DNA of 38,913 nt, from NCBI GenBank assembly GCA_028282105.1, contig JANQIO010000246.1, positions 1 to 38,913 on the forward strand, written 5' to 3'. Every line of letters begins with the position of its first letter. Position 1 is the stretch's first letter. Shown here one piece after another: positions 11,093 through 36,377 of the stretch. Below the pieces are notes generated by a model. The model saw only the letters and a program-made list of their open reading frames with translations, did not search any database and was not told the DNA's origin. Source of the stretch: Halieaceae bacterium. Its GTDB lineage: Bacteria > Pseudomonadota > Gammaproteobacteria > Pseudomonadales > Halieaceae. The position numbers and the translations under genes are program-made.

Positions 11093-12475
11093 CTAATAAA
11101 CGACCGTGTCGGTGCTTCCGTCGAGCAGATTTACCTGCGTAGTGGAAACACTGATTGAACCGACTCTGGCATCTGCGGATAAATTTGCCGAGCACCGACT
11201 TCCCCCGGACAGGCTGACAACTTCGTCTGCCTGCAACACTAGAGTGGTGTTCGGTAACAGCGTACCGCTGGCCGCATCAAGTGGGGTAGCCACAACGCCG
11301 GCCTCTGTTATGAAACTGAAGGCGTAGTCGACAGTTAAATCCCGATGGTTGACCAGAACTATCCTCTGCCGATAGTCGCTAAAAGTCGTGATCTGGGGAA
11401 TCTTCACCACCGTTCCGTTTTGCTCCAGCAGGCCGATGGCCCCGCTGAATTTGGAGGCGCTAAACAGCTGTGAAGGGAACAACGGTTCAGGAACAGCTGA
11501 GGCAAAGTACTCCTCTGACGGAATGACATCAGATTCTCCATCTACCTCCACGCAAAGATTGCTGTAACCCAGGCTACCAAAATCGGCCAGCGTTGCCGTG
11601 GCCGAATCGTAGCTATCAGGATCAATGGAAAGGCTGATGTCCGGGCTGCCGCAATTCGGGTCATCGTCCAGAGTCCAGACACCGAAACTAAAATCGCCCT
11701 TCAGAGCCACCTCCGTGGCTGATTCGTTCACAATGTCCGGCAGTTCCACCTGCGCCCCGTCGCCTGCCGCCAGGATTCCGCTGGTAACCTTGTACTCAAG
11801 GGAGCCGACATTGGCTCGAAGCTCGCCGATACTCGCGGACGTAAATCCTGAAAAGCCCTTGTCGACGTCTGCGGTATTGGTTCCAGGGGTAAAGGAGGCA
11901 GAGGCGCTGGCCGCCGTCCTGATATACGTGGCAAGCTCCCTGCGGTAAAAGCTTGAGTTTTGATACAGCGCATCAGATGGCGTTGAATACAGCTCATAAG
12001 CTATACCTACGGCACCGCTGGCGGGGACGGCCAACTGTCCCAGCGTCAACTCAGCGGTAGCGGTCTGATCGACGGCACTGGTCGCGGTTACAGCAAAGAT
12101 GATGAAGCTGTCCCCGACAGACCCTCCCAGGGAAACAATCACGTCAGCGCTTCCACTATCCACCACCAGTGCTGCCGCGTGGCCCTCCGCAAGAACACCG
12201 TTGGTTAAGGTGTATCTCACATAAAAGCGACTATTCGCCACAAAACTCACGCCCAATTTCGAAACCACGTCGTTGGCGGAACCCGGATCACTGACGTTGT
12301 AGTAGTCCACACCATCTTCCGCACCCTGTGTGATGGCCTTGTCAGAAAGAGTCTCGCGCGCATAGACCGGTGCAGTGGGCACAGCTTCATCGAGGTCTAC
12401 CACAGCAAGAAGCTGGTTCGAGAAAAGCGCATAAAAAGCGCCAATAGCAACCACCGCAAGGGTTCTGGTTCGCAT
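11093..12475 (-). CDS. Secreted Ser/Thr-rich protein, paralogue of the 27485-28882 surface-protein candidate
   Basis: A 460-residue exported protein with no family I can name. Residues 1-24 form a signal peptide (MRTRT, hydrophobic core, cleavage near LLA-V). The rest is beta-rich, acidic and rich in Ser, Thr, Ala, Val and Gly. It is clearly related to the protein at 27485-28882: the shared C-terminal third includes NGT(V/T)V, TTF(S/A)DY(R/N)QR, AASGTL, GGSR and TTQVNL-DxSTDTV. Both have a Cys pair before and inside C-x-VDG (Cys275 and Cys308 here), suggesting a conserved disulfide. A third Cys (428) is unique to this copy. It has more Lys and ends VVY without the other copy's WSVK tail. ATG at 12475, GGAG nine bases upstream. 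Probably a cell-surface or extracellular structural protein, perhaps a variant subunit. Confidence 0.8.
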   Translation of the reverse strand: MRTRTLAVVAIGAFYALFSNQLLAVVDLDEAVPTAPVYARETLSDKAITQGAEDGVDYYNVSDPGSANDVVSKLGVSFVANSRFYVRYTLTNGVLAEGHAAALVVDSGSADVIVSLGGSVGDSFIIFAVTATSAVDQTATAELTLGQLAVPASGAVGIAYELYSTPSDALYQNSSFYRRELATYIRTAASASASFTPGTNTADVDKGFSGFTSASIGELRANVGSLEYKVTSGILAAGDGAQVELPDIVNESATEVALKGDFSFGVWTLDDDPNCGSPDISLSIDPDSYDSATATLADFGSLGYSNLCVEVDGESDVIPSEEYFASAVPEPLFPSQLFSASKFSGAIGLLEQNGTVVKIPQITTFSDYRQRIVLVNHRDLTVDYAFSFITEAGVVATPLDAASGTLLPNTTLVLQADEVVSLSGGSRCSANLSADARVGSISVSTTQVNLLDGSTDTVVY

Positions 12476-12626
12476 TTAGCTCAACTCCGCAATTACTGTC
12501 CCTGGCCAATCGTCAGGCCCCGAAGCTTTGACTACAAAAACGTCTCGGGTCACCTGGCGCTGTATCCGACAATGGACCACCCGTGGGCCCACTGCGACGA
12601 AACGGAGGACGGGTCTGTTGGCCGCC

Positions 12627-12650
12627 AGCTCAACCCAAAAAAGCTCAACC
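12627..12650 (-). repeat. Nine-base direct repeats in the leader of the secreted-protein gene
   Basis: AGCTCAACC occurs at 12627-12635 and 12642-12650, 15 bases apart, immediately downstream of the TATAAT on the minus strand. A third, near-identical copy (AGCTCAACT) is at 12478-12486, overlapping the ribosome binding region of the gene. On the transcript these read GTTGAGCT. They could be an operator or a target for a regulatory RNA or protein. Confidence 0.45.
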
Positions 12651-12654
12651 TACG

Positions 12655-12685
12655 ATTATATACGACCGGGCTGCATAGAAGTCAG
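12655..12685 (-). promoter_or_regulatory. Possible promoter of the secreted-protein gene
   Basis: Minus strand perfect TATAAT (12660-12655), with CTGACT (12685-12680), four of six to the -35 consensus, at a long 19-base spacing. It would give a leader of about 170 bases before the ATG at 12475. The weak -35 suggests dependence on an activator, an inference. Confidence 0.4.
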
Positions 12686-12792
12686 GGGCGCGCAGACCCT
12701 GGCACCGGAGGCGATACCCGGGGGAAAACCTATTTTTCGCACATCATCAGCACTATACTTGCCCGCTCGATAGGTGGGTAACAACTTCAGGC

Positions 12793-13524
12793 ATGCGCGA
12801 GAGCACTCCCGTGGAGCCGAGCCGTCGTATTGGCAAGCTGGTTCATGGCAATCCCAGCCATGAAGACTATTTGCAGCGGTGGGCAGAGCTGTACGAAGAC
12901 ATGAACTACAACCAGGGGCTGGCTGGGTATTTCCTCCAGAAGAGCCATGCCTGGGCGGAACAAAGGTGGGGACCGGAGATTCATTTTGGCAAGGTGCTGG
13001 AAGTTGGCGCCGGTACCGGCGTGCATATCGAGCACGTGCGGCACTCCTTCGACCAATACGTCATGACCGACCTGAATCCCCCGCTAATGAATAGAATTGA
13101 CGGCGTACACGGCCGTGTGGGCGGCGCAATAAGCACGGAAATCCAGGACGCCACCAGCCTGTCCTACGATGGCGAATCATTCGACCGGGTTATCGCTGCA
13201 CACGTTCTGGAACATCTGCCGAATCCGCACGATGTGCTGCTAGAGTGGACGAGGGTTCTAAAACCCGGCGGTGTACTCACACTCGTACTGCCCTGTGATC
13301 CGGGGCTGGCCTGGCGACTGGGGCGCTATGGCTTCGCGAGGAAGAAGTTCATCAAAGCAGGCATCGATTATGACTACTGGATGGCGCGGGAACATATCAA
13401 TGCGATCAACAACCTTGTCTCTTTTACCCGTCATTTCTTCCCCAGGATGAAGGAGCAGTGGCTGCCGTTTCGTATTCCTTCGATGGATCTCAATCTCTTC
13501 TACATCGCCCATATCGAGGTTTAA
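12793..13524 (+). CDS. Class I SAM-dependent methyltransferase
   Basis: A 243-residue cytosolic protein of the Methyltransf_11 type. The SAM-binding motif is VLEVGAGTG (68-76), followed by Asp93 in MTDLN (ribose contact), IQDATSLSYDGESFDRVIAAHVLEHL (motifs II-III) and LKPGGVLTLVLPCDP. The acceptor is not readable; its place beside a small transporter and a GT-C-like protein suggests a lipid-linked sugar or glycan intermediate. ATG at 12793, weak ribosome binding site. First gene of a rightward trio; the next gene starts 9 bases after its stop. Confidence 0.82.
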   Translation: MRESTPVEPSRRIGKLVHGNPSHEDYLQRWAELYEDMNYNQGLAGYFLQKSHAWAEQRWGPEIHFGKVLEVGAGTGVHIEHVRHSFDQYVMTDLNPPLMNRIDGVHGRVGGAISTEIQDATSLSYDGESFDRVIAAHVLEHLPNPHDVLLEWTRVLKPGGVLTLVLPCDPGLAWRLGRYGFARKKFIKAGIDYDYWMAREHINAINNLVSFTRHFFPRMKEQWLPFRIPSMDLNLFYIAHIEV

Positions 13525-13533
13525 ATCAGCGCC

Positions 13534-13896
13534 ATGACCATCGGTCAATTCCTCCTTTGTTTAGGCTGCGTCTGCGCTATTTCGGCGGGACAGCTGCTCT
13601 TCAAGAAGGCTGGCATACTACTTTCAACTGATCACGGCTGGCTGGACTCGCCCGTGCTATTGACAGTGGGCCTGGCTGCGGTCATCTACGGCTCAGCCAC
13701 GCTGCTTTGGATCTACCTGTTGAAGGACGTTACGCTAAGTCGGGCATACATGATATTTGCGCTGAGTTTTGTGCTGGTGCCCATTGCCAGCGTCTATTTT
13801 TATGGAGAGAAGCTCGGCTGGGGTTATGTTGTGGGTACCGCATTGATCCTGCTCGGATTACTCGTCATCTTCCAGAGCGAAAGCCCAGTTCAATAA
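13534..13896 (+). CDS. EmrE/EamA-like small membrane transporter
   Basis: A 120-residue protein with four predicted helices, in the small multidrug resistance / DMT fold: CAISAGQLLFKKAG in helix 1, YGSATLLWIYLLKDVTLSRAYMIFAL across helices 2-3 and GTALILLGLLVIF in helix 4. Helix 1 lacks the Glu14 of EmrE drug pumps. In glycan loci such proteins, like ArnE/ArnF, are thought to flip undecaprenyl-phosphate sugars to the periplasm, which suits the GT-C-like protein encoded next. Starts 9 bases after the methyltransferase stop. Confidence 0.75.
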   Translation: MTIGQFLLCLGCVCAISAGQLLFKKAGILLSTDHGWLDSPVLLTVGLAAVIYGSATLLWIYLLKDVTLSRAYMIFALSFVLVPIASVYFYGEKLGWGYVVGTALILLGLLVIFQSESPVQ

Positions 13897-13918
13897 GGTT
13901 TAGCAGAGAGTCGCCACG

Positions 13919-15937
13919 GTGACAGCCATTTTTCTACCTTCCCTATGCCTCGCACTGTTTACCCTGTCGCTGTTCGGATGGGGCAAGGCCGGCCTGCGAA
14001 TTACAGGAGCCACGCAGCAAGCGTATCCAGCATCCTACGTAGTCGCGTTCGGTATGGCTATGATCGTGTTGTTCGGAGGTGTGCTCAACGCAGCCGACCT
14101 GGCCTATGGCTACGTGCTGCTGGCGCTACTCACATTCGGCTTGATCATTTCCTTTTATATCCTTGCCGCCGCCGTGCTCGACAAAGAGCGAGGCGACGCC
14201 GCATGGCACAAGTTCTCGCGCTTGGCGGATTCTCCTCCTCCGGAATTGCTTTCTTACGTTTTGCTGGCTGGCCTGGCTACATACCTTGTCGTCTTTCTGC
14301 TGCCTTCAGACAACTACAATTTCCACGACGATTACCACTCTTACTTCCCCCGCATAAGCTCGATGCTGGCGACAGGCTCGCTTGGAAACAATCCTCTGGC
14401 GCTAATCGGTGTCGATAGTCTCGGCGCACAGCAGTTCCTGCAAGCCTTTGTCACCAGTCTTTTTGGATTCAAGTACATCAACGCATTTGACGCTGTTTTC
14501 TGCATGATCCTGTGCTGCGCACTGATTATCAGGCTGGCAAGGCTGGCAGCGGCCCATTGGACGCTAGGACTGGCCGGTGTCATCGCAGCCGCCCTTATCA
14601 ACGCTCAGCAGGTCAATGTGTCATCTGTTTTCTCCAGCTCCGCCATGTGCGTTGCGCTTGTCTACGGAGCGCTTGCAGCCGAGGGACAGAGCTACGAAAG
14701 CATACGGCAACGTATATTGCAGTTAGTACCAGTACTCCTGTTTTGCTCTGCCTTGATCGCCCTGAAGCTAATGTCAGCGGTCTTTGCAGCCATGTTCTTT
14801 CTGCTGTTTATGTTTGTATCGGCTCCGGGAGAATCATCTAGATCAGTGTTTCGCTGGCGCGTGTTCGTGGCAGGGGGCTTTTCCGTGACTGCCATCACCG
14901 CACCTTGGTTTCTGGTTCATTGGGTGAACTACAAAACCGCGGTGAAGCTGCTGCTAGACAATCAGCGCTCGGCCTTCTCGGGCAGTGTTGATGTTTCGTC
15001 GAACCTCAGCAGTCTTTCACTTAAGCAATTCTTCTCTGCGCAGGAACTATTCTGGGGGGGAAGCTATCTCGGCTACAACATACTTTTCCTGCTACTCACC
15101 GCTGCCTTTGTATGGCTGGCAGCCGCAGCCATCGTCAGACGGCTCTCAGCACACGAGCGGGTTGCGCTCTCCGTTACCGGCGCTACGGCGCTATCCTACT
15201 CTTTTGCTCTGCTCGTGTTTGAGCCGGACATGGCGCTACGCTACTGCGTACCTTTCCTGATCGCCGCAATCGCCGTGACACCCATCCTGCTATTTACTTC
15301 GGTCACGAGTGTCTCCAGCAGCGGTGAGAAAGCCGAGGCAACAGGCAATCGGAATCTCGCTGCAGTGCTGTCGATAGTGGTGCTGCAGATGGTACTGATC
15401 TACTCGTTTTCAGATTCCTTTGTGAGACGCTTGAAGGTCATGCAGGAAACAAGATCCACGCTTATGTTCCCACTGACAGAGAACTACAAGAACTACACTC
15501 AAGCTACATTTTCACCGCAAAGGGAAACAGCACACAAAAAGATCCAGGAACTCTGTCGACCGGAAACAGGAGTCTTTACCTGGGTCTCAACTGCCTTTCT
15601 ATTCGATCACAGGCGCCACACCATAGTTAACTTCGCCGACCCGGCCACTATGACACCGTGGTTCAACCTACCCACCTCCGGTGACACAGAGTCTCTTCGC
15701 AGGGCGCTACTGGACATTGGCATAGAGTGCATCATTTGGGAGTTTGCTGGTTATGGAATGAAAACCGGCCAGCAGCACCTGGAGGCAGCCAGCTCGCCAA
15801 TCTACATACAGCGCCGACTGGGAGAAGCAGTACTTGCCTTGCGCAGCTCACTCGAAAGCCTGGCAAACGCCAGCACGCTAAAATACAACCGAGACGGACT
15901 CGTTGTCATGGATATTGCCGAACAACAATCACCATAG
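13919..15937 (+). CDS. Integral membrane protein, GT-C-like
   Basis: A 672-residue protein with about 11-12 predicted helices to residue ~505, then a soluble tail of about 165 residues. After the fourth helix a loop with DNYNFHDDYHSYFPRIS carries several acidic and aromatic residues, as in periplasmic GT-C glycosyltransferases and mannosyltransferase-like proteins. The C-terminal soluble part contains ELCRPETGVFTWVSTAFLFDHRRH, resembling the periplasmic domains of such enzymes, but I recognise no defined family. GTG start at 13919, 22 bases after the small transporter stop. With that transporter it could form a lipid-sugar flip-and-transfer pair. A glycan polymerase (Wzy-like) is an alternative. 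Confidence 0.6.
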   Translation: MTAIFLPSLCLALFTLSLFGWGKAGLRITGATQQAYPASYVVAFGMAMIVLFGGVLNAADLAYGYVLLALLTFGLIISFYILAAAVLDKERGDAAWHKFSRLADSPPPELLSYVLLAGLATYLVVFLLPSDNYNFHDDYHSYFPRISSMLATGSLGNNPLALIGVDSLGAQQFLQAFVTSLFGFKYINAFDAVFCMILCCALIIRLARLAAAHWTLGLAGVIAAALINAQQVNVSSVFSSSAMCVALVYGALAAEGQSYESIRQRILQLVPVLLFCSALIALKLMSAVFAAMFFLLFMFVSAPGESSRSVFRWRVFVAGGFSVTAITAPWFLVHWVNYKTAVKLLLDNQRSAFSGSVDVSSNLSSLSLKQFFSAQELFWGGSYLGYNILFLLLTAAFVWLAAAAIVRRLSAHERVALSVTGATALSYSFALLVFEPDMALRYCVPFLIAAIAVTPILLFTSVTSVSSSGEKAEATGNRNLAAVLSIVVLQMVLIYSFSDSFVRRLKVMQETRSTLMFPLTENYKNYTQATFSPQRETAHKKIQELCRPETGVFTWVSTAFLFDHRRHTIVNFADPATMTPWFNLPTSGDTESLRRALLDIGIECIIWEFAGYGMKTGQQHLEAASSPIYIQRRLGEAVLALRSSLESLANASTLKYNRDGLVVMDIAEQQSP

Positions 15938-15940
15938 CGC

Positions 15941-15970
15941 AGGTGGCTCCAGGTGGCTCCAGGTGGCTGA
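15941..15970. repeat. Short tandem repeat, 10 bp x 3
   Basis: AGGTGGCTCC is present twice in tandem (15941-15960) and followed by a third copy with changed last bases (AGGTGGCTGA). It lies in the 48-base space between two convergent genes. Probably slipped-strand expansion; no function is evident. Confidence 0.7.
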
Positions 15971-15985
15971 AGCCAGATACAAAGG

Positions 15986-16450
15986 CTAGAGCTGGCGCCC
16001 GGAAACGGACTCGTTAGAATGGGGCGGGACGTCAGACCGCCCCGCGCGGAACACGAGTGCCCTGCTAAGAGAAAACGAGAACAGAAAAGACACCACTGCC
16101 GCCAGGCCGAGCCGCAAGGGTGCATTCAGGCCGGGCCCCGGCAGCAGTGGGCCCAGAACATGCAAGGCTAGTAGCCGAACGGCCAGGGACACCAACACCA
16201 CCGCAAAAAAACCCAGGAAGCGTTTTAACGAGAGTGAAGAACCCTCGTCCCTGAACGTCCAGCGTTGGTGGCCAACATAGTTAGCGCAGGTTGCGATCGA
16301 AAAACCGGCAATGGCAGCAATGCTGTCCGCCGCAGCAAACGCAGCGATGAGTATCCAGGCCACCGCGATATCAACAACCAGCCCGAACAGAGAGACCAGA
16401 AAAAAGCGACGTAGCTCCCTGAAACGGTTGTCAGGCCTGACGACCCGCAT
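15986..16450 (-). CDS. GtrA family flippase-like membrane protein
   Basis: A 154-residue protein with four predicted helices and GtrA hallmarks: RRFFLVSLFGLVVDIAVAWIL in helix 1, ATCANYVGHQRWTFRDEG after helix 2 (the conserved N-Y-X-X-X-R-X-W-T-F block) and FLFSFSLSRALVFR at the end. GtrA proteins are thought to flip polyprenyl-phosphate-linked sugars across the inner membrane for periplasmic transferases. I place the start at the ATG 16450 (MRVVRPDNRF); an in-frame TTG lies 15 bases upstream. It is the last gene of the seven-gene leftward operon, 26 bases after the stop of the GT2 gene that probably makes its lipid-linked substrate. Confidence 0.85.
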   Translation of the reverse strand: MRVVRPDNRFRELRRFFLVSLFGLVVDIAVAWILIAAFAAADSIAAIAGFSIATCANYVGHQRWTFRDEGSSLSLKRFLGFFAVVLVSLAVRLLALHVLGPLLPGPGLNAPLRLGLAAVVSFLFSFSLSRALVFRAGRSDVPPHSNESVSGRQL

Positions 16451-16476
16451 AGCAGAAATTCTCAATCAATCACTGT

Positions 16477-17292
16477 CTACGGATGGTAGCGCCGTAACAG
16501 GGTTGAGAACAGCGTCTTGAGGAGATCAACGTTTCCGCCGAAGGAACTAATCTTGGTAGGTACCGCACCTTCATTCGGGTAGGTGCGAATGGTTGGGATT
16601 TCTAAGACACTTAGGCCAAGCTGGGACGCTCTTACCGTTAGATAAGCGAGTAACTCGTAGTTTACAAATACATCGCGGAATGGGCATACCCGTGCATCGA
16701 GCAGGTAACGGGAAGAGTAGGCCCGATAGCCCTGGGTGGTATCCGTCAACCACTTACGCGCCGCCAGGCTTAGTATCGGCGCATGGATAAAACGAACGGC
16801 AAACCAGCGAATTAGAGGGGTATTGATACCTCGACCGCCCCTGATAAATCTTGAGGCCTGAACATAATCGACGCCTGCATCAAGCGCCGCGGCGAACCGG
16901 GGAATTGTCTCGACCCCGTCTTTGCCGTTTCCGTCTATCGTTATGACACCCGTGTACCCCGCCTCCAGCACCCAAGCATAGGCCATGCGGAGCTGGGCAG
17001 AGAGCTTTCCCGGGCCTCGCTTCACAAGCAGGGCACTGACGCCGAAGGATTCAAGCAAGCCAGGTTCTGTGGAGCCGTCCGTAGAGCCTCCATCGGCTAT
17101 AACAACATCAACTGCGCTCATATGGCCCTGCTCAGCCATTTGCGCGAGCTGCCGGGTCAACCGCTCGCCTTCGTTAATGACTGGAACGACCAGGCAGTAC
17201 TTGCTGCTTTTCGCACGAATACGGAGGCAATCAAACTCAGGTACGCTCCAGTCGACACGATCAATTCGGCCCGGTTGTAAGTTGTTGCTCAT
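16477..17292 (-). CDS. GT2 glycosyltransferase, polyprenyl-phosphate sugar synthase-like
   Basis: About 271 residues without an obvious membrane helix. GT-A motifs: YCLVVPVINEGERLTRQL, VDVVIADGGSTDGST (metal and nucleotide site), ITIDGNGKDG, which replaces the usual DXD/DADGQ motif, and DTTQGYRAYSSRYL, matching the dolichol-phosphate mannose synthase region. It resembles DPM1/GtrB-type enzymes without their C-terminal helices. ATG 17292 overlaps the preceding stop as ATGA, indicating coupled translation; an upstream in-frame codon at 17316 would add only eight residues. It probably loads a sugar on undecaprenyl phosphate for GtrA to flip. Confidence 0.8.
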   Translation of the reverse strand: MSNNLQPGRIDRVDWSVPEFDCLRIRAKSSKYCLVVPVINEGERLTRQLAQMAEQGHMSAVDVVIADGGSTDGSTEPGLLESFGVSALLVKRGPGKLSAQLRMAYAWVLEAGYTGVITIDGNGKDGVETIPRFAAALDAGVDYVQASRFIRGGRGINTPLIRWFAVRFIHAPILSLAARKWLTDTTQGYRAYSSRYLLDARVCPFRDVFVNYELLAYLTVRASQLGLSVLEIPTIRTYPNEGAVPTKISSFGGNVDLLKTLFSTLLRRYHP

Positions 17293-18113
17293 ACCAGCTC
17301 CGCATCCCCATAGCAACGCGAGGCATAAGCGAGAGCGCGCTCAATATTGGGAAGCGTCGCCTCACCATCGTCCAACATCTCAATCGTCACCACCCGGTCA
17401 GGGCAATGCTTGCGAATAGCTGCAGCCACACCGGCATGTTCGGCGCCATGGTCTCCCAGCACCTTCAGCCCAGGCTCACTGGCATGAATATGCGCGACAA
17501 GCTCAGCACAATCCGCCAATACCATTTCGGGGTCCTCACAGTTTAGCGTCAATGCGCCTACGTCCAATTGCATTCGAATCGCAGGGTGATTTGTCGCGCG
17601 CACGATTTCTGCTGTCGATGCCGCATCAGTCATGAAGTTTGCCCCGTACTGCACAGGGTTCGGCTCGAGACAGATCACGGTGTCGTACTGTATTGCGAAG
17701 TCGCCCAGCCTCCTGAAGAAATCGCAGGCAAGCCCAGAGACTTCCGCATCCTCCAGACCGCTGCGGTCTCTATTACGTGGAGACCCGAAGACAAGATATC
17801 GAGCACCCAGACCGCCTCCCACCCGGCAGACCTGCTGCAGGTACGCCAACATCCGTTCCTGTGTGGCGGCGTCTCCAAAAACGTTCAAACCTTCGGTGCC
17901 AAACAGAAGCGATTGCATGCCAACTATCTCTACGCCTCTGTCAGCCCAGGTTGCCCGCACCCTGGTGATACCGTCGTTGGTCGCATCGGGGATACTGTCA
18001 AAGTACTTACCTGGCGCAACGTCGATCGCATCCGCACCGAATTCAGAGAGCAATTGAGCGACTTCGCCGTCATACTCCGGCGACCAGGCGATGTTCGAAA
18101 TCGAGATACGCAC
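17289..18113 (-). CDS. Sugar phosphate isomerase/epimerase-like TIM barrel protein
   Basis: A 274-residue protein of the xylose-isomerase-like TIM barrel family. Candidate metal ligands at strand ends are Glu150 (ICLEPNP), Asp184 (MQLDVGAL), His210 (AHIHASEP) and Glu245 (VTIEMLD), the usual four-ligand divalent-metal pattern. Members act as isomerases, epimerases, dehydratases or endonucleases, so the substrate cannot be named; an operon with an SDR and an FAD oxidoreductase points to sugar remodelling. GTG start at 18113, five bases after the SDR stop; its stop overlaps the GT2 start. Cytosolic. Confidence 0.8.
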   Translation of the reverse strand: MRISISNIAWSPEYDGEVAQLLSEFGADAIDVAPGKYFDSIPDATNDGITRVRATWADRGVEIVGMQSLLFGTEGLNVFGDAATQERMLAYLQQVCRVGGGLGARYLVFGSPRNRDRSGLEDAEVSGLACDFFRRLGDFAIQYDTVICLEPNPVQYGANFMTDAASTAEIVRATNHPAIRMQLDVGALTLNCEDPEMVLADCAELVAHIHASEPGLKVLGDHGAEHAGVAAAIRKHCPDRVVTIEMLDDGEATLPNIERALAYASRCYGDAELV

Positions 18114-18118
18114 CCTGT

Positions 18119-18898
18119 CTATCGGTCCCGGGGTTCCGACTGCGCGTAGGCGCGAACAGCCTGCAGCGACTCGCGTCGGCTGTATTGGTAATCTCCGGTT
18201 CCCCCCAAAACTTCTGCGTAGATGCTCCGCATATCGTAGGTCGCCGGATTGCCGTCCAGGACATTCTCAAAGCGCATATTGAATCCCTCGACTGCAAGGT
18301 CCGCCACACTCACCGGCTCGGACGTGAGGTGCAGAAGCCGCAGCCCGCAATCAACTGCGCGGGAGATGTCGAAGAACAGATTGATCATCGGGTAAAACTG
18401 GAACACGCCACGCGAATCAATAAGCTGAACATTATTGTCATGCAGAAAATCGTAGATGACGTTCTTCTTCAAACCCGGGCCCACCAGCCCGGGTAAGCGC
18501 ACGATTAGGTGCTCATCAAAACGATCAGCGACGAATCGCTCCAGCAGGCGTCGGTGGAGTCCGTAGCTGTGCAGGCCTACCTCCTCCACAGCACTGTTCT
18601 CATCGACACCCACAGGGCTGAGGAATACATCAACGGTGCTAATAAGTATGAACCTGCGGGTATCCAGTGAATCGAGGCTGGAGATAAGGGTATCGATGTT
18701 GGCGCGGTCGGCTATGGGATCCCGATTGGCAATCCACTTCGCGGCCGGAGCCGCGGCGCAATAAACAGTATCCCAGGACTGCCCACGCAGTTCTGTCATA
18801 TTGTTAGAGCGAAAGTACCCGGCAAACTCCGCCTGCCGCTGTAACATGGAGCCGACGAATCCGCTGTACCCAATCAGGGCGTCTTTATTACTGGCCAT
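18119..18898 (-). CDS. Atypical extended-SDR (NAD-dependent epimerase/dehydratase-like)
   Basis: A 259-residue Rossmann protein, shorter than most sugar epimerases (300-340). It has GYSGFVGS (10-17), the G-X2-G-X2-G cofactor loop, ISTVDVF (86-92) for the active-site Ser/Thr, and LPGLVGPGLKKNVIYDFL in the substrate region. The usual Tyr-X3-Lys is Tyr112-X3-Arg116 (YGLHR), an unusual replacement of the catalytic Lys that could lower or alter activity. Candidate roles are reduction or epimerisation of a nucleotide sugar or free sugar. ATG at 18898 overlaps the GT-C-like gene stop by 11 bases. Confidence 0.75.
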   Translation of the reverse strand: MASNKDALIGYSGFVGSMLQRQAEFAGYFRSNNMTELRGQSWDTVYCAAAPAAKWIANRDPIADRANIDTLISSLDSLDTRRFILISTVDVFLSPVGVDENSAVEEVGLHSYGLHRRLLERFVADRFDEHLIVRLPGLVGPGLKKNVIYDFLHDNNVQLIDSRGVFQFYPMINLFFDISRAVDCGLRLLHLTSEPVSVADLAVEGFNMRFENVLDGNPATYDMRSIYAEVLGGTGDYQYSRRESLQAVRAYAQSEPRDR

Positions 18899-21474: not shown

Positions 21475-21477
21475 GAG

Positions 21478-22512
21478 CTAGGAACTCGAAGCTATCTCGC
21501 CTGCTTCGCCGACAGACTCGGGACTTGAAGCTGCGCTGCCAACCTCCACGTTTAGCCTTTCACGTCGCGTGATGACAGCGCTGGTGAACTCTTCGGAGAC
21601 ATAGTAGTCGGGCGCATTTGAAGCAAGCCTTGCCATATGGATCACGTACTCACCCAGCACAAAAAGCACCAGGGAAAACAGAAAGAACATTCCTGATTGC
21701 TGCAGGGATAGCGTCACCCAACCCGGAGCGACCTCCACCTTCAGCAAGGCCACCGCAACCACGTATATGGAATAGATGACATTGACGACCGCTCCAAACA
21801 GGCAGAGCAGAGTCACAGCACGCATGGGCCCCAAGGTGCTTGACACCAGGATTCTCACGCCTCGATCGATATCCTCAATCAGGCTGCTGCTGCGCTTCCT
21901 TCCAGAGCTTTCATAAAACACCGTAGACTTGCGGAATCCCGACGTCGCCGGCAGCCACGTGTAGGCCAGCCCGGACGCGGAGTGCTGCACCATGTAGTTG
22001 ACCACGGTTCGGCTCAATACTCTGAATACCGGCATTTCCCTGTTCGCGTCAATTCCCAGAAGTCTGCTTACCAGCACGCCGAACACCTTGCGCAGGAAAC
22101 TATAGACTGGCGATTTTTTGGCGGACTGGCTGCCCACGCCAAAGACAACATCCGCCCCCTCGACGGAGGCCTCCAGCAGCTGCGGTAGTGCCTGAAGGTC
22201 ATCGCGCGCGGGATCTACGACTGCCACGTAATCCCCAAGTGCATTCTCCACTCCGGCCCATGCCGCAAGATCTATTTCGACTCTCTTCGCAAGTCGGTAA
22301 ACCTGTAGATTGGGGACACCCTCTTCGCGGCACAGGGACTGGAGAAGCTCGATCGAATGATCCATGGATCCATTGTCGATAACGACGATCTCATGATCTG
22401 CCACACAGCTTTGGGCAATATCGCTGCAGCTTCGCAGGACGCGCTCAAGGTCATCATGAAGGTTATCGGCAACGAGAATGATCGAGAGAAATATTTCGTG
22501 TGGAGTACTCAC
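21478..22512 (-). CDS. GtrB-like GT2 glycosyltransferase with membrane tail
   Basis: A 344-residue protein: GT-A domain (IFLSIILVADNLHDDL, EIVVIDNGSMDHSI, VAVVDPARDD) followed by two predicted helices at about 233-265 and 275-300, the topology of GtrB/DPM-type polyprenyl-phosphate glycosyltransferases. The DXD motif is weak (VDPARDD), so catalytic competence deserves doubt. Residues 318-344 form a Ser/Glu-rich tail. GTG start at 22512 with AGG six bases upstream. First gene of the seven-gene leftward operon. Confidence 0.78.
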   Translation of the reverse strand: MSTPHEIFLSIILVADNLHDDLERVLRSCSDIAQSCVADHEIVVIDNGSMDHSIELLQSLCREEGVPNLQVYRLAKRVEIDLAAWAGVENALGDYVAVVDPARDDLQALPQLLEASVEGADVVFGVGSQSAKKSPVYSFLRKVFGVLVSRLLGIDANREMPVFRVLSRTVVNYMVQHSASGLAYTWLPATSGFRKSTVFYESSGRKRSSSLIEDIDRGVRILVSSTLGPMRAVTLLCLFGAVVNVIYSIYVVAVALLKVEVAPGWVTLSLQQSGMFFLFSLVLFVLGEYVIHMARLASNAPDYYVSEEFTSAVITRRERLNVEVGSAASSPESVGEAGEIASSS

Positions 22513-22994
22513 TGTCTACCTGACCCTTGGATGCTCTATCGCTGCCCGACTAACAATAAGCTAAACGCGAGGTAGCCCAGCGGATGCTGATGTCTCGATT
22601 GAGAGGTTGGGCGAATAGAATGTCTTGTATGCCTGTTGTCTGTGGGCATCCGCTTCTCGAACGGTGCCAGCGTGCCCTTTTCACCGGAGTGCCCTACCTC
22701 TCCGGGCAAGGCCTGGCCGGAATCGGGATGATAGCACAGGCCGCATTTCCTGACCTACGCCAGAACCCCGCGGCGCCCGGCGGATAGCGCCGCTGGTGTG
22801 CGCCGATGGCTTGGCATATATTAAGCCGCTGACAAGGCTCGGCTCTGCCGAGCACCCTCTAGTTGAGAACACGCCTAAACACCCATGCCCAGTGCAAACC
22901 AAAGAAGTGGCGGCCTAACAGGCCTGAACCGAAGCCGGGATGAGTCCGCAAGCAAAGGCTCATCCTGGCACTACCGTCGGAGAGGAGCGTCTCT
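22513..22994. other. Divergent intergenic region, 482 bases, with structured leader
   Basis: Lies between the leftward seven-gene operon and the rightward GtrB-like gene. The left half (22513-22800) shows no convincing gene or promoter. The right half has TATATT at 22817-22822 without a good -35, then hairpins at 22837-22853 (GCTCGG / CCGAGC) and 22912-22924 (GGCCT / AGGCC), and the long hairpin listed next. The ribosome binding region itself (22981-22994) can fold as AGAG / CTCT. Confidence 0.5.
22934..22969 (+). other. Long hairpin in the leader of the GtrB-like gene
   Basis: GCCGGGATGAG (22934-22944) pairs with CTCATCCTGGC (22959-22969) over 11 positions, ten Watson-Crick plus one G-U, around a 14-base loop. 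It ends 25 bases before the GTG start. Two shorter hairpins precede it. This may be a cis-acting RNA element or an attenuator; no T-run follows. It matches no riboswitch class I recognise. Confidence 0.45.
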
Positions 22995-23951
22995 GTGAGG
23001 GTGTATGTTGTCATACCTTGCTTCAAGGTCACGCAGCACATTCAGCAAGTTATTGAGCTTATAGGCGGCGAAGTTCAGGGAATCGTTGTGGTCGATGACT
23101 GTTGCCCTGACGCGTCTGGCGACTATGTCGCCGACAATGTTGAGGATCCCCGGGTGACCGTGCTTCGACACGATAGCAACCAGGGTGTCGGCGGCGCCGT
23201 TATGACGGGTTATCGCCACGCGTTATCAGAGGGAGCGGATATCTGTGTGAAAGTTGACGGGGATGGCCAGATGGACCCACGGTTGATCCCGGGATTGATC
23301 GCTCCTATCGTCAATGGGCTGGCCGACTATGTGAAGGGCAACAGGTTTTTCTCTCTCTCAGACGTCTCCACCATGCCGAAGGCGCGGCTGTTTGGGAATA
23401 CCGCTCTGAGCTTCCTCACCAAGCTGTCCAGCGGCTACTGGAGCATTTTCGACCCCACCAATGGATTCACTGCGATTCACCGGGCAGCACTGGGCACCCT
23501 GCCACTACACAGAATTGACCGCCGCTACTTTTTTGAGACCAGCATGCTTATTGAGCTTGGAGCTGCTCGCGCCAGGGTCGTGGATATGCCAATGAAAGCG
23601 GCCTATGGAGACGAGGTCAGCGGACTCAGGATCAAGGATGTACTGTTGGAGTTTGCCGGAAAACACGCCCGCGCCATTTTCAGGCGCACACTCTACCAGT
23701 ACTATCTTCGGGACTTCTCCCTGGCATCGCTGCACTTGCCACTGGGGATCCTGTTGACAGTGTTTGGGGTCGTATTTGGCGTTTACGCTTGGTCCGTGTC
23801 AGCAGATACGGGGGTGCCCGCGACCACAGGTACGGTGATTCTATCCGCCTTGCCGACTCTGCTGGGCGTGCAATTCATCCTCAGCTTTTTTGCCTTCGAT
23901 ATCGCCAGTGAACCGTCGGTTCCGCTGCAGTCATTTGGAGCAAAGGACTGA
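22995..23951 (+). CDS. GtrB-like GT2 glycosyltransferase
   Basis: A 318-residue protein with full GT-A motifs: VYVVIPCFKVTQHI, GIVVVDDCCPDASGDYV, a glycine-rich SNQGVGGAVMTGYRHAL, the DXD region VKVDGDGQMDP and a FDPTNGFTAIHRAAL block as in DPM1/GtrB. Two predicted helices at about 248-270 and 283-303 anchor it in the inner membrane. It should transfer a sugar from a nucleotide donor to undecaprenyl phosphate. GTG start at 22995 with AGAGGAG about 8 bases upstream. It is alone on the plus strand and converges on the sulfotransferase gene nine bases further on. Confidence 0.85.
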   Translation: MRVYVVIPCFKVTQHIQQVIELIGGEVQGIVVVDDCCPDASGDYVADNVEDPRVTVLRHDSNQGVGGAVMTGYRHALSEGADICVKVDGDGQMDPRLIPGLIAPIVNGLADYVKGNRFFSLSDVSTMPKARLFGNTALSFLTKLSSGYWSIFDPTNGFTAIHRAALGTLPLHRIDRRYFFETSMLIELGAARARVVDMPMKAAYGDEVSGLRIKDVLLEFAGKHARAIFRRTLYQYYLRDFSLASLHLPLGILLTVFGVVFGVYAWSVSADTGVPATTGTVILSALPTLLGVQFILSFFAFDIASEPSVPLQSFGAKD

Positions 23952-23960
23952 ATCGGTTCT

Positions 23961-24761
23961 TCAGCTAGCCTCCGGCGATTCCTGATAGCCCAGGAGCTCA
24001 AGACTGGGAACAAAGTCTGCGCAGGCCGCGAGGGCCTTCGCCAGCTCGACGCTCACAGAGTGCTGACGAGACTCGATTACCGTCGTTCGGGATTCCATGC
24101 TGCCGCCTTTTCCAGCGGCGTTATTGGTAACACTGGTAAAGTCCTTCCACCGCGACTCAAACGCAGGGTCATAGTTGATTTTCAACAGCCCACATAGAGT
24201 TTGCAGGTTTGACGCTGGATTCAGCGTGAACTCTTCGAAGCGAACAAAGCCAATGTCCGCGGCAAGTTCTGCGAAAGCCCTGTAGCCTTTCAAGAAACGG
24301 CGCACATCCAGCTTGTCCTCTATCTCAGGCTGACGCCTCAGGCTCTCCCACTGAGTCACCGGGTGCCTCACGATTGCGGCCTGGTTAAGATCAAAACTTG
24401 ATGCCAGGACCTCCGCGGTTGTTAGCTTATAGCGCGGCTCAGTAACCCAGGGAACGCCCGTGAAATCGAGGTGCGACCAATCCCTGACCACAAGCTGGTC
24501 ACCGCGTGAGCGCACAGAACGATGAATCAATTCAACAGCCTGCAGCCAGTTAAGATCATCCAGCCCGCTGGCTTTGGCCTCTGCCTGTACATCAATGCCC
24601 AGCCAGTCTCGCGCCTGAGCCAGCGGATTCGCCCTGCCACCGTTCGCAAAGGGGTGTATTTCACTGAGCAGCGCAATCCCCTGCATGGCGCCAATGCACC
24701 GCGCTACCAGCGTACCGCCGGCGCGCGCCATATGGTGAATGACGGCGATAGAATCACTCAT
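23961..24761 (-). CDS. Sulfotransferase-like P-loop protein
   Basis: About 266 residues. The N-terminus has IHHMARAGGTLVARCIGAM (8-26), a divergent 5'-phosphosulfate loop, and AIVRHPVTQWESL (129-141) fits the 3'-phosphate site with Arg132 and Ser140. Similarity to proven sulfotransferases is lower than for the gene at 6605-7429, so a related P-loop transferase is possible. I use the ATG at 24761, 25 bases after the OGT-like stop; an in-frame TTG at 24803 would overlap that gene. It probably shares the OGT transcript, suggesting that protein glycosylation and sulfation are linked. Confidence 0.65.
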   Translation of the reverse strand: MSDSIAVIHHMARAGGTLVARCIGAMQGIALLSEIHPFANGGRANPLAQARDWLGIDVQAEAKASGLDDLNWLQAVELIHRSVRSRGDQLVVRDWSHLDFTGVPWVTEPRYKLTTAEVLASSFDLNQAAIVRHPVTQWESLRRQPEIEDKLDVRRFLKGYRAFAELAADIGFVRFEEFTLNPASNLQTLCGLLKINYDPAFESRWKDFTSVTNNAAGKGGSMESRTTVIESRQHSVSVELAKALAACADFVPSLELLGYQESPEAS

Positions 24762-24786
24762 CTGCTTGTTCGTTCGGCATTGGGTG

Positions 24787-27357
24787 CTATCTCTCCACAG
24801 CAACCGTCAGATTTTCAGATCGCCACTGCTTCCAAACACCTTGCACCGCCTCATGAAACTGCTGCGCAAAGGCATCGGCATCCATCAGCGGTGAGGCGAT
24901 CAGTCGATCTCGCAAGCCCGCCCGGGTAGCAGCCAGAGATTTCGTGTCCGCGGCCTTCTCGGTGGCAACACGGACGTAGTCCTCAGCATCCTCTGCAATC
25001 CAGTCAGGCATGCCCAGGTTATTCATAATGCTCTCCCCCGCATGAGAGAGAAATCGCTCTCCGCGCCGGGTAAGGACAGGCACACCCATCCAAAGTGATT
25101 CAAAGCTTGTCGTACAACCGGTATAGGGGAACGGATCCAGGCCGATATCCACACGGCCGTATGATTCGAGGATATGCTCCCGGGACCGGGACGCCTCGAA
25201 CATAAGCCGTTCTTCCTCAACCCCCAGCGCCACAAAGTCGCCCAGCAGCTTGTCGCGGTATACCGGGTCGGTGAGCACCTGATTCTTGAGCAACAGCCTG
25301 GCGCCCTCTACGGACTTGAGCACTTCAGCCCACAACTCTATAACCTTCCGGTTTAACTTCGCGAAGTTATTGAAGCTGCCAAAGGTGATGTAGCTATTCT
25401 CTGCAGCCGGCAAGGTGGACACGTCCGGGGAGCCCTGGGGCTGCGAGAGGCACTGGTAGCTATGGGGAAGCACCAGGGGTTTCTCTACAAAATGGGCTTG
25501 CTCATCCGGCGGTGTCACCCATGGGTCGCCGATGATGTAGTCGATAGCGTCTAGACCCGTGGTCGAAAGATAGCCCAGCCAGGTAATCTGCACGGGTGCG
25601 GGCTTACGGGCGAAGGTGCCCATGCGGTTATGCGACGTGTGGCCAGATACGTCAAGCAGCACGTTTACGGCATCACCGTGGATCTTCGCCGCCAGCTGCT
25701 CAGGAGTATCGCGGTAACAAAGATCCCATTTGTCGGCCATTCTGGCGAAGCGCTTGCTGGTGTCATCCTGCACGACCACCGTGGAGTACAGGTAAAGTTC
25801 AACGCCCATGGCCGCCAGCTTGCCCAGCACGGACTCCAGGAAAAAACCAACCGGGTGATCCCGCATATCCCCGGAGACGATGCCCAGACGCAGGGGGGCT
25901 TCACTGTCTCGCGCAACTGTCCAGGAAGTATAGCGCGGCGTGTCGCTGTGGAACTTTGTCGCCCACCCCCTGGTGATATCCAGCAGCTCCTGGGCTGTGA
26001 CCTCAGGATTGTAGAGGTGGGCAAAGATCCAATTGCTGTGGTGCTCCGAGCTAGCCAGCGGAGACGCCAGTGCGCTGTCATAGTAGTGCATGGATTGGTC
26101 ATAGACGCCGGTCAGTGAACTGATACCGGCCAGGTTTAACTGGGCGGAAAAATAGTCGGGCGAAGACTCCAGAATCGACCTGTAGATGCCTATCGCCTCG
26201 GCAAAGCACTTGGCGTTCTGGTAGCAGATGCCCAGGCGATTCTTAATTGAAAGATCATCAGGCCTTTGCTGTGAGCCTGTCTTGGCAAACTCCAGGGCCT
26301 GGTCGATTTTCTGCTGCCCCATCAGGGCGTCAACCAGTGTGTTGTAGGCGCCGATCATGGACTTGTCCATAAGGATCAGCCGACGGCACTCCCATTCCGC
26401 CTGCTGCAACTCACCTTCCGCCAGCAACACCTCGGTCAGGGCCGTCATCGCGGGTTTGTGCCCGGGATTAATGCCTAGTGCTTTCTTCAGTAGTTGCCGC
26501 GCTTTTTCATAGTGACCGCTTCTGGCGGCAATGCGCCCCAGCAGGACGATAGCGGCCACCGCGTCACCCTTGAGCGACAGCGCCTGGCGGGCATGGCGTT
26601 CCGCCTGCATAACATGGCCAAACTCCATGCATGCCACGCCCGCGTTGATGTGGTGAACCGCTTCCGCGGGATTGACCAGCAGCGCCTTCTCGTGGGCGGC
26701 GAGACTGGCAGCCGCCATGGATTTCTCCATATAAACGACACCGAGCTGCCCCCAGGCCTCGTCGTGATGAGGGTCGAGATTGACCACCAGGTTAAATTGC
26801 TGGATGGCCTCATCCAGCGCCCCCAGGTTAGAGAGCGCCAACGCATAGTAGTAGCGTGCAGACAGGTTGGCATCGTCCTGCGTAAGTGCATGCTGGCTAC
26901 GCTGCTTCAGTTCAGCGTAACGCTCGGCGCTAGCGAGCTGACGAAGCTCCTCAATGCTACCCGCGGCTTTGGCCACAGGACCGCCAGCTTGCAGTGCAGA
27001 CTTGAGCTCCTGCAGCGCTTCCGAGCCTGGCAGTCTGGCGAGCCCGTCGCTGACTACGCCAAGCGCTTGTGATGGGCTACCACTTTGAACAAGGTGATTG
27101 GCAAAATAGCCGACGAAGTCGGCATTGTCCGGTTGCAGCCTAACGGCTTCCTGCAGCAACGGTGTCGCATGGGCCTGGTAGCCCGCGGCGCGGGCGATGC
27201 GACCCAGGTAGTGATAGGCGCCGGCATGTTCCCGATCCTGGGCAATAATCTCCTTCAATAGCCGCTCCGCGGTCGCGCTATCGCCAGCGTCGATAAGCTG
27301 GCGCGCCCGGGCGAACGCAGTATCAACTGGCTGCTTTTTACTACTCTTCTTGGGCAT
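24787..27357 (-). CDS. TPR-containing O-GlcNAc transferase-like protein (GT41 / SPINDLY)
   Basis: About 856 residues. The N-terminal half (about 10-430) is a run of tetratricopeptide repeats, for example LDEAIQQFNLVVNLDPHHDEAWGQLG. The C-terminal half (about 476-837) is the SPINDLY/OGT catalytic domain: MRDHPVGFFLESVL with His501 near the OGT catalytic His, GHTSHNRMGTFARKPAPVQ, WLGYLSTTG, FGSFNNFAKLNRKVIELW with Lys667 in the UDP-contact strand, and DPFPYTGCTTSFESLWMGVP. Family enzymes transfer GlcNAc or related sugars to Ser/Thr (or Asn, HMW1C-type) of proteins in the cytosol. The ATG at 27357 (MPKKSSKK) is preferred because an extended -10 overlaps the TTG at 27396; no clear ribosome binding site. 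It lies directly downstream of the Ser/Thr-rich exported protein, the obvious candidate target. Confidence 0.87.
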   Translation of the reverse strand: MPKKSSKKQPVDTAFARARQLIDAGDSATAERLLKEIIAQDREHAGAYHYLGRIARAAGYQAHATPLLQEAVRLQPDNADFVGYFANHLVQSGSPSQALGVVSDGLARLPGSEALQELKSALQAGGPVAKAAGSIEELRQLASAERYAELKQRSQHALTQDDANLSARYYYALALSNLGALDEAIQQFNLVVNLDPHHDEAWGQLGVVYMEKSMAAASLAAHEKALLVNPAEAVHHINAGVACMEFGHVMQAERHARQALSLKGDAVAAIVLLGRIAARSGHYEKARQLLKKALGINPGHKPAMTALTEVLLAEGELQQAEWECRRLILMDKSMIGAYNTLVDALMGQQKIDQALEFAKTGSQQRPDDLSIKNRLGICYQNAKCFAEAIGIYRSILESSPDYFSAQLNLAGISSLTGVYDQSMHYYDSALASPLASSEHHSNWIFAHLYNPEVTAQELLDITRGWATKFHSDTPRYTSWTVARDSEAPLRLGIVSGDMRDHPVGFFLESVLGKLAAMGVELYLYSTVVVQDDTSKRFARMADKWDLCYRDTPEQLAAKIHGDAVNVLLDVSGHTSHNRMGTFARKPAPVQITWLGYLSTTGLDAIDYIIGDPWVTPPDEQAHFVEKPLVLPHSYQCLSQPQGSPDVSTLPAAENSYITFGSFNNFAKLNRKVIELWAEVLKSVEGARLLLKNQVLTDPVYRDKLLGDFVALGVEEERLMFEASRSREHILESYGRVDIGLDPFPYTGCTTSFESLWMGVPVLTRRGERFLSHAGESIMNNLGMPDWIAEDAEDYVRVATEKAADTKSLAATRAGLRDRLIASPLMDADAFAQQFHEAVQGVWKQWRSENLTVAVER

Positions 27358-27395
27358 AACCGGAGGGAAAGAACTGAGGAACTTAAACGCCGCCA

Positions 27396-27404
27396 ATCAT
27401 AGCA
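27396..27404 (-). promoter_or_regulatory. Extended -10 promoter for the OGT-like gene
   Basis: Minus strand TGC-TATGAT: a TGn extension plus a hexamer matching TATAAT at five of six. No good -35 is seen, as expected for an extended -10 promoter. It lies just beyond the terminator of the surface-protein gene and would start transcription about 30 bases before the ATG at 27357. Confidence 0.45.
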
Positions 27405-27423
27405 GAACTCGGAAAGCGAATAA

Positions 27424-27460
27424 GGAAAAAGAAAAGAAAAAGGGGGCCGAAGCCCCCTTT
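27424..27460 (-). terminator. Rho-independent terminator of the surface-protein gene
   Basis: On the minus strand AAAGGGGGC-TTCG-GCCCCCTTT (27460-27439), a nine-pair stem closed by a UUCG tetraloop, followed by a T-rich run interrupted by single Cs to 27424. It ends 25 bases after the stop codon at 27485. A smaller hairpin (CGAAC / GTTCG, 27463-27478) precedes it. Very strong by sequence. Confidence 0.93.
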
Positions 27461-27484
27461 AACGAACAGTGATGTTCGACTAGC

Positions 27485-28882
27485 TTACTTGACGGACCAG
27501 TAAACCGTATCGGTAGAGCTGTCAGCCAGGTTCACCTGCGTGGTAGCCACGTCGATGTCTGAGCTGGGTGCTACAACCGTTACCGTAGCTGCGCCGCGGC
27601 TGCCGCCTTCGAACTCAACCAGGTCAGTCATACGCAGTACCAGGTTCTCACCCGCCGGCAGCGTACCAGAAGCGGCAGGCAGCTCAGTCGCCGTCACACC
27701 GTCTTCCGTGCGGAAGGTGATCTCGTAGGTAACGTCAACACCGCTGCGGCTGTTGAGCAGCAGACGCTGGTTGTAGTCAGCAAACGTGGTCACGTAAGCC
27801 ACTTCAACCGTGGTGCCGTTACGAACGATGTTACCAACACTGCTGGTCGCGGTGGTGGCGCTCGGGCTGGAGTTGGTCTCAGCATGAGTCAGCACAACCG
27901 TCGCGGTGTAAGCGGCGTTCGGAATCACTTCCTCGTCACCGTCAACCGTGGCACACAGGGCACGACCGTTACCGTCAGCCATATCAATGGTAGCCATTGA
28001 GAAAGACGCGGTATCCGGAACCAGCGCAGTGGAGCCTGACGGGTCACAGGTGCCGTCAGTAGCGCCACTCACGTAGAAGCCGGAAGACGTGTTGAAGCCG
28101 AAGTTGCCGCTGTAGGTCACGGTAGAGTTGGACGTAGCGTCAACCAGGTTTGCGAAGGTCGCCGCGCTCAGGTCAGATGCCAGCGAGAAACCGGTCAGCG
28201 CATCGGCAGTGAACAGGCCCAGAACACCAGTGGTGCTGGTAGAGGCGCCGTCGACAAACTCGGTGAAGCCAGTCTGTACTTCCGCCGTCGCGTTAGCAGG
28301 CGTGAAGTCGATATCCAGCGCGTCTGCGATGGACACCACACCACTCGCCGTCTGGTCGGACAGTGCGGGACCACCTGCCAGAGCGTTGCCCTGGTCGGTG
28401 TAGACACGCATGCGAACATCCAGGCTGGAACCGGTCAGGCCAATACCCAGGCTCGGGTTTTGGAAGTCGAGGGTTACGGAAGCCGTCTGGTTGAAACCAG
28501 CACCGCCGGCCAAAACACCGAATACTGCGCTGGTATCGCCGGTCAGGCCGTCGGTCAGAGACGTGCTGGCAGTACCATCCACGTCAACCGCGCCCTGCGG
28601 CAGATCAGACAGCAACGTGCCGCCAGTCCAGTCATAACGGATATAAATCTGGTCGTTTGCAGGGACACCGACCTGAATGAGGCCTTCCACGTCCAGCGCG
28701 CCCGTAGTATCGCCCACACCTACCGGCAGAACACCCGTGGTAGTCGGCGCAATCGACTCGTTGGCGATCGCGATTTCAGTCGTCAGATCGTCGTCGGAGA
28801 CGTTGAACGCAGCCATCGCGCTCACAGAGATGCCAGTCGCCGCGCAGGCCACCGCCACACTCAGTACCTTTTTATTGAACAT
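27485..28882 (-). CDS. Exported Ser/Thr-rich acidic protein, candidate S-layer or surface-coat protein
   Basis: A 465-residue protein with no family I can name. Residues 1-24 are a signal peptide (MFNKK, hydrophobic core, cleavage at AMA-A). By hand count Ser plus Thr make up about 23% of the protein; the mature part is acidic, has one Lys (the last residue) and only two Cys (279 and 310), which fit a conserved disulfide shared with the paralogue at 11093-12475. Sequence alternation suggests a beta-rich fold. Expression looks high: AGGAG seven bases before the ATG, its own promoter (28973-29000), a strong terminator and a biased codon set. The type II secretion operon lies directly upstream on the same strand and an OGT-like gene directly downstream. 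I infer an abundant, possibly glycosylated surface protein. Slr4-type S-layer proteins of marine Gammaproteobacteria are a natural comparison, but homology is untested here. It could instead be a secreted matrix or adhesive protein. Confidence 0.75.
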   Translation of the reverse strand: MFNKKVLSVAVACAATGISVSAMAAFNVSDDDLTTEIAIANESIAPTTTGVLPVGVGDTTGALDVEGLIQVGVPANDQIYIRYDWTGGTLLSDLPQGAVDVDGTASTSLTDGLTGDTSAVFGVLAGGAGFNQTASVTLDFQNPSLGIGLTGSSLDVRMRVYTDQGNALAGGPALSDQTASGVVSIADALDIDFTPANATAEVQTGFTEFVDGASTSTTGVLGLFTADALTGFSLASDLSAATFANLVDATSNSTVTYSGNFGFNTSSGFYVSGATDGTCDPSGSTALVPDTASFSMATIDMADGNGRALCATVDGDEEVIPNAAYTATVVLTHAETNSSPSATTATSSVGNIVRNGTTVEVAYVTTFADYNQRLLLNSRSGVDVTYEITFRTEDGVTATELPAASGTLPAGENLVLRMTDLVEFEGGSRGAATVTVVAPSSDIDVATTQVNLADSSTDTVYWSVK

Positions 28883-31324: not shown

Positions 31325-31854
31325 TGGAACAGCCGATACTCAACAATTTCGCCGCTCTCTGCGCCGGTAATCTGTAGGTAAGTGTCCGATATTCCCGACA
31401 CAACCCAGCCTTCTGCAACCACGGTTTCCAGCTCCACCTCAATTAAACCCGCATCATTAGCGGAGGATATCATGAGCGCACGTTGATCATCCGGCATTTT
31501 TACTGGCTTCAACATGGCTGCCAACCTGGGCTCACGCAGGATAGCCACCAGTTGGAGATGCTTGAACACTCCGGGGCGGCCCTCGGTTTCCGGCTCCGGT
31601 TCAGGCTCAGGCTCCGGTAGTTCATCCTCAGCCGGCCCCTCGCCACGGCGCCACTGTTCGCTGGCCATCAGCACCGCCATCAAATCATCGACCGGCGGCG
31701 CGGTCAGCGCCCAGGATTCCCCGAGCCTGAATGAATTGCTGCCAGGCGCCGGGCTGCCGGTCAGCGTACCCAGCAATATCCCAACTGCCAGACCGCCTCC
31801 CGCAGCTGCCGCCGCCAGCCTCAGAGGCAATGGAAGGTTCAGGAAAGCATTCAT
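31315..31854 (-). CDS. gspN: Type II secretion protein GspN (XpsN-like)
   Basis: A 179-residue bitopic inner-membrane protein: short cytoplasmic tail, one helix (about 12-30), a proline-glutamate linker (PEPEPEPEPE, about 80-90) and a periplasmic domain of about 90 residues (GVFKHLQLVAILREP...YLQITGAESGEIVEYRLF) resembling the homology-region domain of GspC/PilP-type proteins. Its place between gspM and gspD matches xpsN of Xanthomonas, whose product bridges XpsL/XpsM to the secretin XpsD. No separate gspC is visible. The ATG at 31854 overlaps the gspM stop as ATGA; longer in-frame starts would intrude into gspM. Confidence 0.75.
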   Translation of the reverse strand: MNAFLNLPLPLRLAAAAAGGGLAVGILLGTLTGSPAPGSNSFRLGESWALTAPPVDDLMAVLMASEQWRRGEGPAEDELPEPEPEPEPETEGRPGVFKHLQLVAILREPRLAAMLKPVKMPDDQRALMISSANDAGLIEVELETVVAEGWVVSGISDTYLQITGAESGEIVEYRLFQWE

Positions 31855-36351: not shown

Positions 36352-36377
36352 CAATTAACCACTTAACTATCCGGCTA

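Follow-up and report, generated by a model that had tools for sequence, protein, structure and literature searches.

The window, a contig of 38,913 nucleotides from a Halieaceae bacterium, contains two full-length homologous genes, slpA and slpB, that probably encode an abundant S-layer subunit exported through an adjacent type II secretion system (T2SS) and a much scarcer relative that enters this coat or assists it, a reading to which a probability of roughly 0.6 is assigned. Homology, gene order, the differences in codons and terminators, the recurrence of the pair and the remote link to Slr4 are observed directly, whereas secretion, the formation of a lattice, protein abundance, the incorporation of SlpB into the SlpA coat and sulfation are predicted from the genes. 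SlpA would be the dominant building block of a coat on the cell surface, in all likelihood an S-layer, and would pass first through Sec and then through a dedicated T2SS encoded directly upstream. SlpB, which shares the C-terminal domain and the cysteine pair, would be far less plentiful and probably enters the coat as a minor subunit, sitting at edges or defects or serving as an anchor or glycan-binding site. This asymmetry is written in the DNA: slpA has codons of the highly expressed type and its own terminator, and slpB, whose neighbours include a glycosyltransferase and a sulfotransferase, has neither. The coat probably carries glycans or is held in place by a sulfated one.

Both open reading frames lie on the minus strand with the lengths originally given, 460 amino acids for slpB (P0001; 11093..12475), proposed as the minor paralogue based on BLASTP, codon usage and the lack of a terminator behind it, and 465 amino acids for slpA (P0002; 27485..28882), the proposed major coat protein, directly behind gspD. 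The two align at 31% over 417 amino acids (BLASTP, E 6e-42) with a Smith-Waterman score of 448, against 60 ± 10.5 for 500 shuffles (37 SD above), so the similarity is not composition bias and the proposed paralogy is upheld. The C-terminal part scores 288 (shuffled 34 ± 5.8; 44 SD) and the N-terminal half alone 137 (shuffled 44 ± 7.8; 12 SD); the C-terminal third is therefore the most alike and common to both proteins, as had been noted, but the similarity is not confined to it. The motifs NGTxV, TTFxDYxQR, AASGTL, GGSR and TTQVNL were recovered, as was the cysteine pair at a spacing of 31–33 residues (C279/C310 in P0002, 31; C275/C308 in P0001, 33), the second cysteine of which falls in CATVDG and CVEVDG, respectively. 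A third cysteine (GGSRC) is present in P0001 only. The pair is kept in more than 90% of a 35-member family, and the slpA product of one genome (G490) has neither cysteine, a joint loss that would fit a disulfide. By inspection, both N-termini resemble signal peptides cut near residue 24, and the mature proteins are acidic (pI 4.05 each) and rich in serine and threonine.

Upstream of slpA, likewise on the minus strand, the gene order is gspE-F-G-H-I-J-K-L-M-C-D, with slpA 276 bp behind gspD. The cluster consists of gspE (37568..38913; match to gspE of related loci), truncated because the window is one entire contig of a fragmented assembly, gspF (36378..37568; TIGR02120, E 1.2e-72, below the curated cut-off of the model), the pseudopilin genes gspG, H, I, J and K (33483..36354; each matched to its counterpart in related loci), gspL, M and C (31315..33580; assigned by matches and gene order), and the secretin gspD (29159..31324; PF00263, 2.9e-43). 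As the genome encodes three secretins, gspD among them, the T2SS next to slpA is an additional and probably dedicated system. The slpA gene is directly behind the T2SS cluster in the window and in two sister species (G001 and G002), homologues in the distant loci examined are also behind T2SS genes, and those of the Alteromonadaceae directly follow gspK of a divergent T2SS cluster. The slpB gene by itself is not adjacent to the cluster.

The description of the family as unnamed agrees with the lack of a Pfam or NCBIfam match for either protein. At E 1 neither P0001 nor P0002 matches the Slr4 model (PF19526) or any other Pfam family, which counts against the main reading, and sequence and profile searches returned no match to either among PDB chains. 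Over the 35 aligned members, the Pfam Slr4 profile matches none except the protein of genome G973. This T2SS-linked protein is found at 1.1e-37 by a family profile that does not contain it, matches PF19526 at 5.5e-14 and aligns with the window genus at an hhalign probability of 97 over 374 columns. A second protein, from genome G452, matches PF19526 at 1.1e-57 and is found by another family profile at 2.7e-4, with hhalign giving only 1.2% against the window genus alone. Because the G973 protein is matched by both the family profile and PF19526, the slpA/slpB family is taken, on these profile matches, to be a remote relative of Slr4 beyond the current model. The comparison with Slr4 thus gives a remote relation and not a direct match of the window proteins, and no resemblance to RsaA was seen by sequence, RsaA being absent among the PDB chains that the family profiles found with cut-offs of E 10 and E 1. 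The coat role itself is supported by the T2SS linkage, the remote Slr4 relation, the acidic Ser/Thr-rich composition and the conserved cysteine pair.

Carriers within the taxonomic family of the window number 4 of 140 genomes, all from the window genus. Orthologues of both genes are present in the two sister species, and a third relative (G003, a genome 86% complete) yielded slpB alone, truncated by a contig end. A class-wide profile search of 369 genomes added two carriers, and starting from these the family was found in Alteromonadaceae and neighbours, including Paraglaciecola, Bowmanella, Aestuariibacter, Lacimicrobium, Neptunicella, Alteromonas, Agaribacter and Neiella; the collection scan for members used a pattern from a nine-row alignment. 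Beyond the G973 bridge, an order-wide search gave just weak chance matches (porins and others), and a search of the plasmid collection gave no family match. Additionally, the N-terminal domain (profile 58-171) is met again at the C-terminal end of a 1440-aa protein that is different in its remaining parts, where it forms a module of its own (E 9.8e-20; L008 / L163, G003:C159:4269-4613).

Gram-negative S-layers have mostly been described as consisting of one protein. RsaA of Caulobacter is, like the coat proposed here, placed on the outer membrane of a Gram-negative bacterium, but is exported by a T1SS, whereas the neighbours in the window are T2SS genes. Slr4 of Pseudoalteromonas tunicata is an S-layer protein encoded by a single gene adjoining a T2SS, with Lacimicrobium named among the carriers of homologues (PMC7821379). 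The family resembles Slr4 in a signal-peptide-like N-terminus (seen here by eye), the length class, the placement directly beside a T2SS cluster, the remote relation in sequence for which the G973 and G452 proteins form the bridge, and a Lacimicrobium locus among its own loci, and differs in that SlpA and SlpB fall outside the Pfam Slr4 model and that the lattice here is predicted from genes. NpdA, an S-layer protein of Paracidovorax/Delftia and some Gammaproteobacteria, is also the product of a single gene adjoining a T2SS (PMC10765051); by description it is alike in having about 50 kDa, no named domain and a gene behind 12 gsp genes (PMC10765051), slpA having gspE (truncated by the contig end) to gspD directly upstream. 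The text of the Slr4 paper makes no mention of paralogues, sulfation or glycosylation (PMC7821379), and that of the NpdA paper no mention of paralogues (PMC10765051). Tannerella forsythia, also Gram-negative, is reported to have a coat made of two different S-layer glycoproteins (PMC3354324), a likeness drawn by description.

Codon usage and terminators, both of which are proxies for expression, support the proposed division into a major and a minor subunit. With the S10-operon ribosomal genes of its own genome as reference, slpA has a codon adaptation of 0.707 (rank 2 of 33 genes) and the sole clearly positive log ratio (+0.120), while slpB has 0.477 (rank 17 of 33; log ratio -0.169). For the nine other pairs, slpA takes the first or second rank among the genes of its region, with log ratios of +0.05 to +0.24 against -0.12 to -0.27 for slpB, such that all 10 intact pairs combine ribosomal-protein-like codons in slpA with ordinary codons in slpB. 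Directly behind slpA lies an intrinsic terminator (27439..27460, minus strand; AAAGGGGGC-TTCG-GCCCCCTTT and a T-rich tail), held in a 51-nt stretch that folds at -22.2 kcal/mol (z -5.35). A strong intrinsic terminator follows the stop codon at a distance of no more than about 50 nt in 24 of 24 slpA or single genes and in 0 of 10 slpB genes, compared with 0.15 and 0.1 of ten in shuffled sequence and 5 of 121 other labelled genes. The counted genomes share ancestry, so that the pair and terminator counts are not independent trials, and the split is present on both sides of the tree. Based on these differences SlpA is predicted to be abundant and SlpB scarce. A promoter scan performed no better than chance, and an Rfam search gave no match.

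The same asymmetry bears on the possibility that SlpA and SlpB are alternative coats, each sufficient alone and switched by conditions, with no mixed lattice. The similar length, pI and domain plan of the two proteins would suit such a role, as would the separate intergenic stretch, some 317 bp long, that precedes slpB in the window and the solitary slpB of G002 and G003. However, slpB lacks high-expression codons in ten genomes, though these would be expected of a coat that forms the sole layer, and in seven Alteromonadaceae it lies directly behind the slpA terminator, making a switch between two coats unlikely.

Two adjacent paralogues occur in at least seven Alteromonadaceae (G427, G439, G485, G490, G537, G603 and G636). 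In a 33-row tree the second copies of the Alteromonadaceae form one clade (support 100/100) and slpA and slpB of the window genus are sisters (100/99). Forcing a single slpB clade was rejected with 22 rows (p-AU 0.009) and not with 33 rows (p-AU 0.13), and an origin of the pair by more than one separate duplication is favoured by these trees, if not proven. Many related genomes have a single gene, indicating that slpB is dispensable in general. This absence counts against an abundant SlpA with a scarce SlpB in the same coat, as do the broken second copy of one Neiella coat gene (L112 7304-8658; split over two frames by assembly error or decay), the placement of slpB away from the T2SS in G002 and G003, and the G003 slpB for which no slpA was found. 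The recurrence of an abundant and scarce pairing in a second bacterial group suggests that a coat of a known type also exists in a form with two components.

The genes around the pair look like two modules, T2SS-slpA-GT41-sulfotransferase and slpB-glycosyltransferase-sulfotransferase, with a glycan cluster between them (12793..23951, no strand assigned) that comprises GT2s, a methyltransferase, an FAD oxidoreductase, a TIM barrel protein and membrane proteins. The four enzyme genes of the modules are on the minus strand. Next after slpA is a TPR + GT41 glycosyltransferase (24787..27396; PF13844, 2e-44), kept behind slpA in G001 and G002, and then a sulfotransferase-like gene kept in the genus (23961..24803; assigned by inspection with no Pfam match, orthologues in G001 and G002). 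Directly behind slpB is a glycosyltransferase of the SGGHQKV type (10060..10995; PF13692, 5.2e-7; 8e-57 to a gene of locus L028), with a sulfotransferase close by (6605..7429; 2e-42 to a gene of locus L027, itself PF13469/PF00685). An orthologue of this last sulfotransferase is within a few genes downstream of the coat gene or genes in all 20 Alteromonadaceae-type loci, most of which also have an orthologue of the SGGHQKV-type glycosyltransferase following. The claim that the pair flanks the glycan cluster applies to the window and G001 and fails in G002 and G003, where slpB is elsewhere. The conserved neighbours suggest a sulfated glycan as partner of the coat, and the inference of sulfation also draws on sulfate adenylylation and APS kinase genes near the T2SS/coat locus of G973 (L135). 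Sulfate adenylylation and APS kinase supply PAPS for sulfotransferases. The TPR-GT41 enzyme, which has a weak similarity to protein N-glucosyltransferase (E 2e-6), may take part in glycosylation in the window genus and might glycosylate the coat protein before export.

It was also considered that SlpB is a secreted glycan helper that receives, carries or anchors the glycan of the neighbouring enzymes and is no lattice subunit. The conserved glycosyltransferase directly after slpB in the window and G001, the nearby sulfotransferase, and the sulfotransferase or TPR-sulfotransferase after slpB in Alteromonadaceae are consistent with such a helper. Yet the same sulfotransferase also follows single-copy slpA loci without slpB, both enzymes remain in place in G002 with slpB elsewhere, and SlpB is best conserved in the domain that it has in common with SlpA; a helper role is accordingly judged improbable. 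A comparably low probability is given to SlpA and SlpB being adhesins or matrix proteins that the T2SS exports but that do not assemble into a regular layer: the lattice is predicted here from genes and Slr4 is also a matrix component (PMC7821379), but Slr4 and NpdA, whose genes are placed in the same way, build lattices (PMC7821379, PMC10765051). The original suggestion of a phase- or antigen-variable set, for which the less similar N-terminal halves could speak, is very improbable, since the two genes share no DNA tract of 12 bp or more, contain no homopolymer of 7 or more and no short tandem repeats, form stable branches in the tree and are both kept in sister species at 46-67% identity.

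For the reading of an abundant SlpA and a scarce SlpB in one coat, the repeated major/minor pair opens a direct test of how a closed lattice handles edges, curvature, anchoring and glycan attachment. Sulfated glycans are known on archaeal S-layers, and the conserved sulfotransferase and glycosyltransferase would bring them into a bacterial S-layer system. A tentative and rather doubtful extension is that T2SS-exported S-layers of the wider Slr4 group exist as two-component coats, in which a minor paralogue accompanies the major lattice subunit, that arose through repeated separate duplications, with a sulfated glycan made by adjacent genes decorating or anchoring the coat. Within the part of the literature covered, work on S-layers with sulfotransferases and type II secretion is represented by the O-antigen/A-layer of Aeromonas salmonicida, and work on sulfated S-layer glycoproteins and sulfotransferases foremost by archaeal Halobacterium.

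Several other features of these loci may be noted. The glycan genes at 12793-23951 differ among the window, G001 and G002 (L010, L011, L012 and L013) with the flanks kept, similar to a glycan-type exchange site. In G002 and G003 (L014 and L015) slpB is beside a GGDEF-type protein, away from the T2SS locus, and in G003 also beside a very large protein. Further, a membrane protein with a PFYLDD motif, which by eye resembles O-mannosyltransferases of the TMTC/PMT type, is encoded beside either gspD or the coat gene at several of the loci (L027 3064-4848, L117, L118 and L086).
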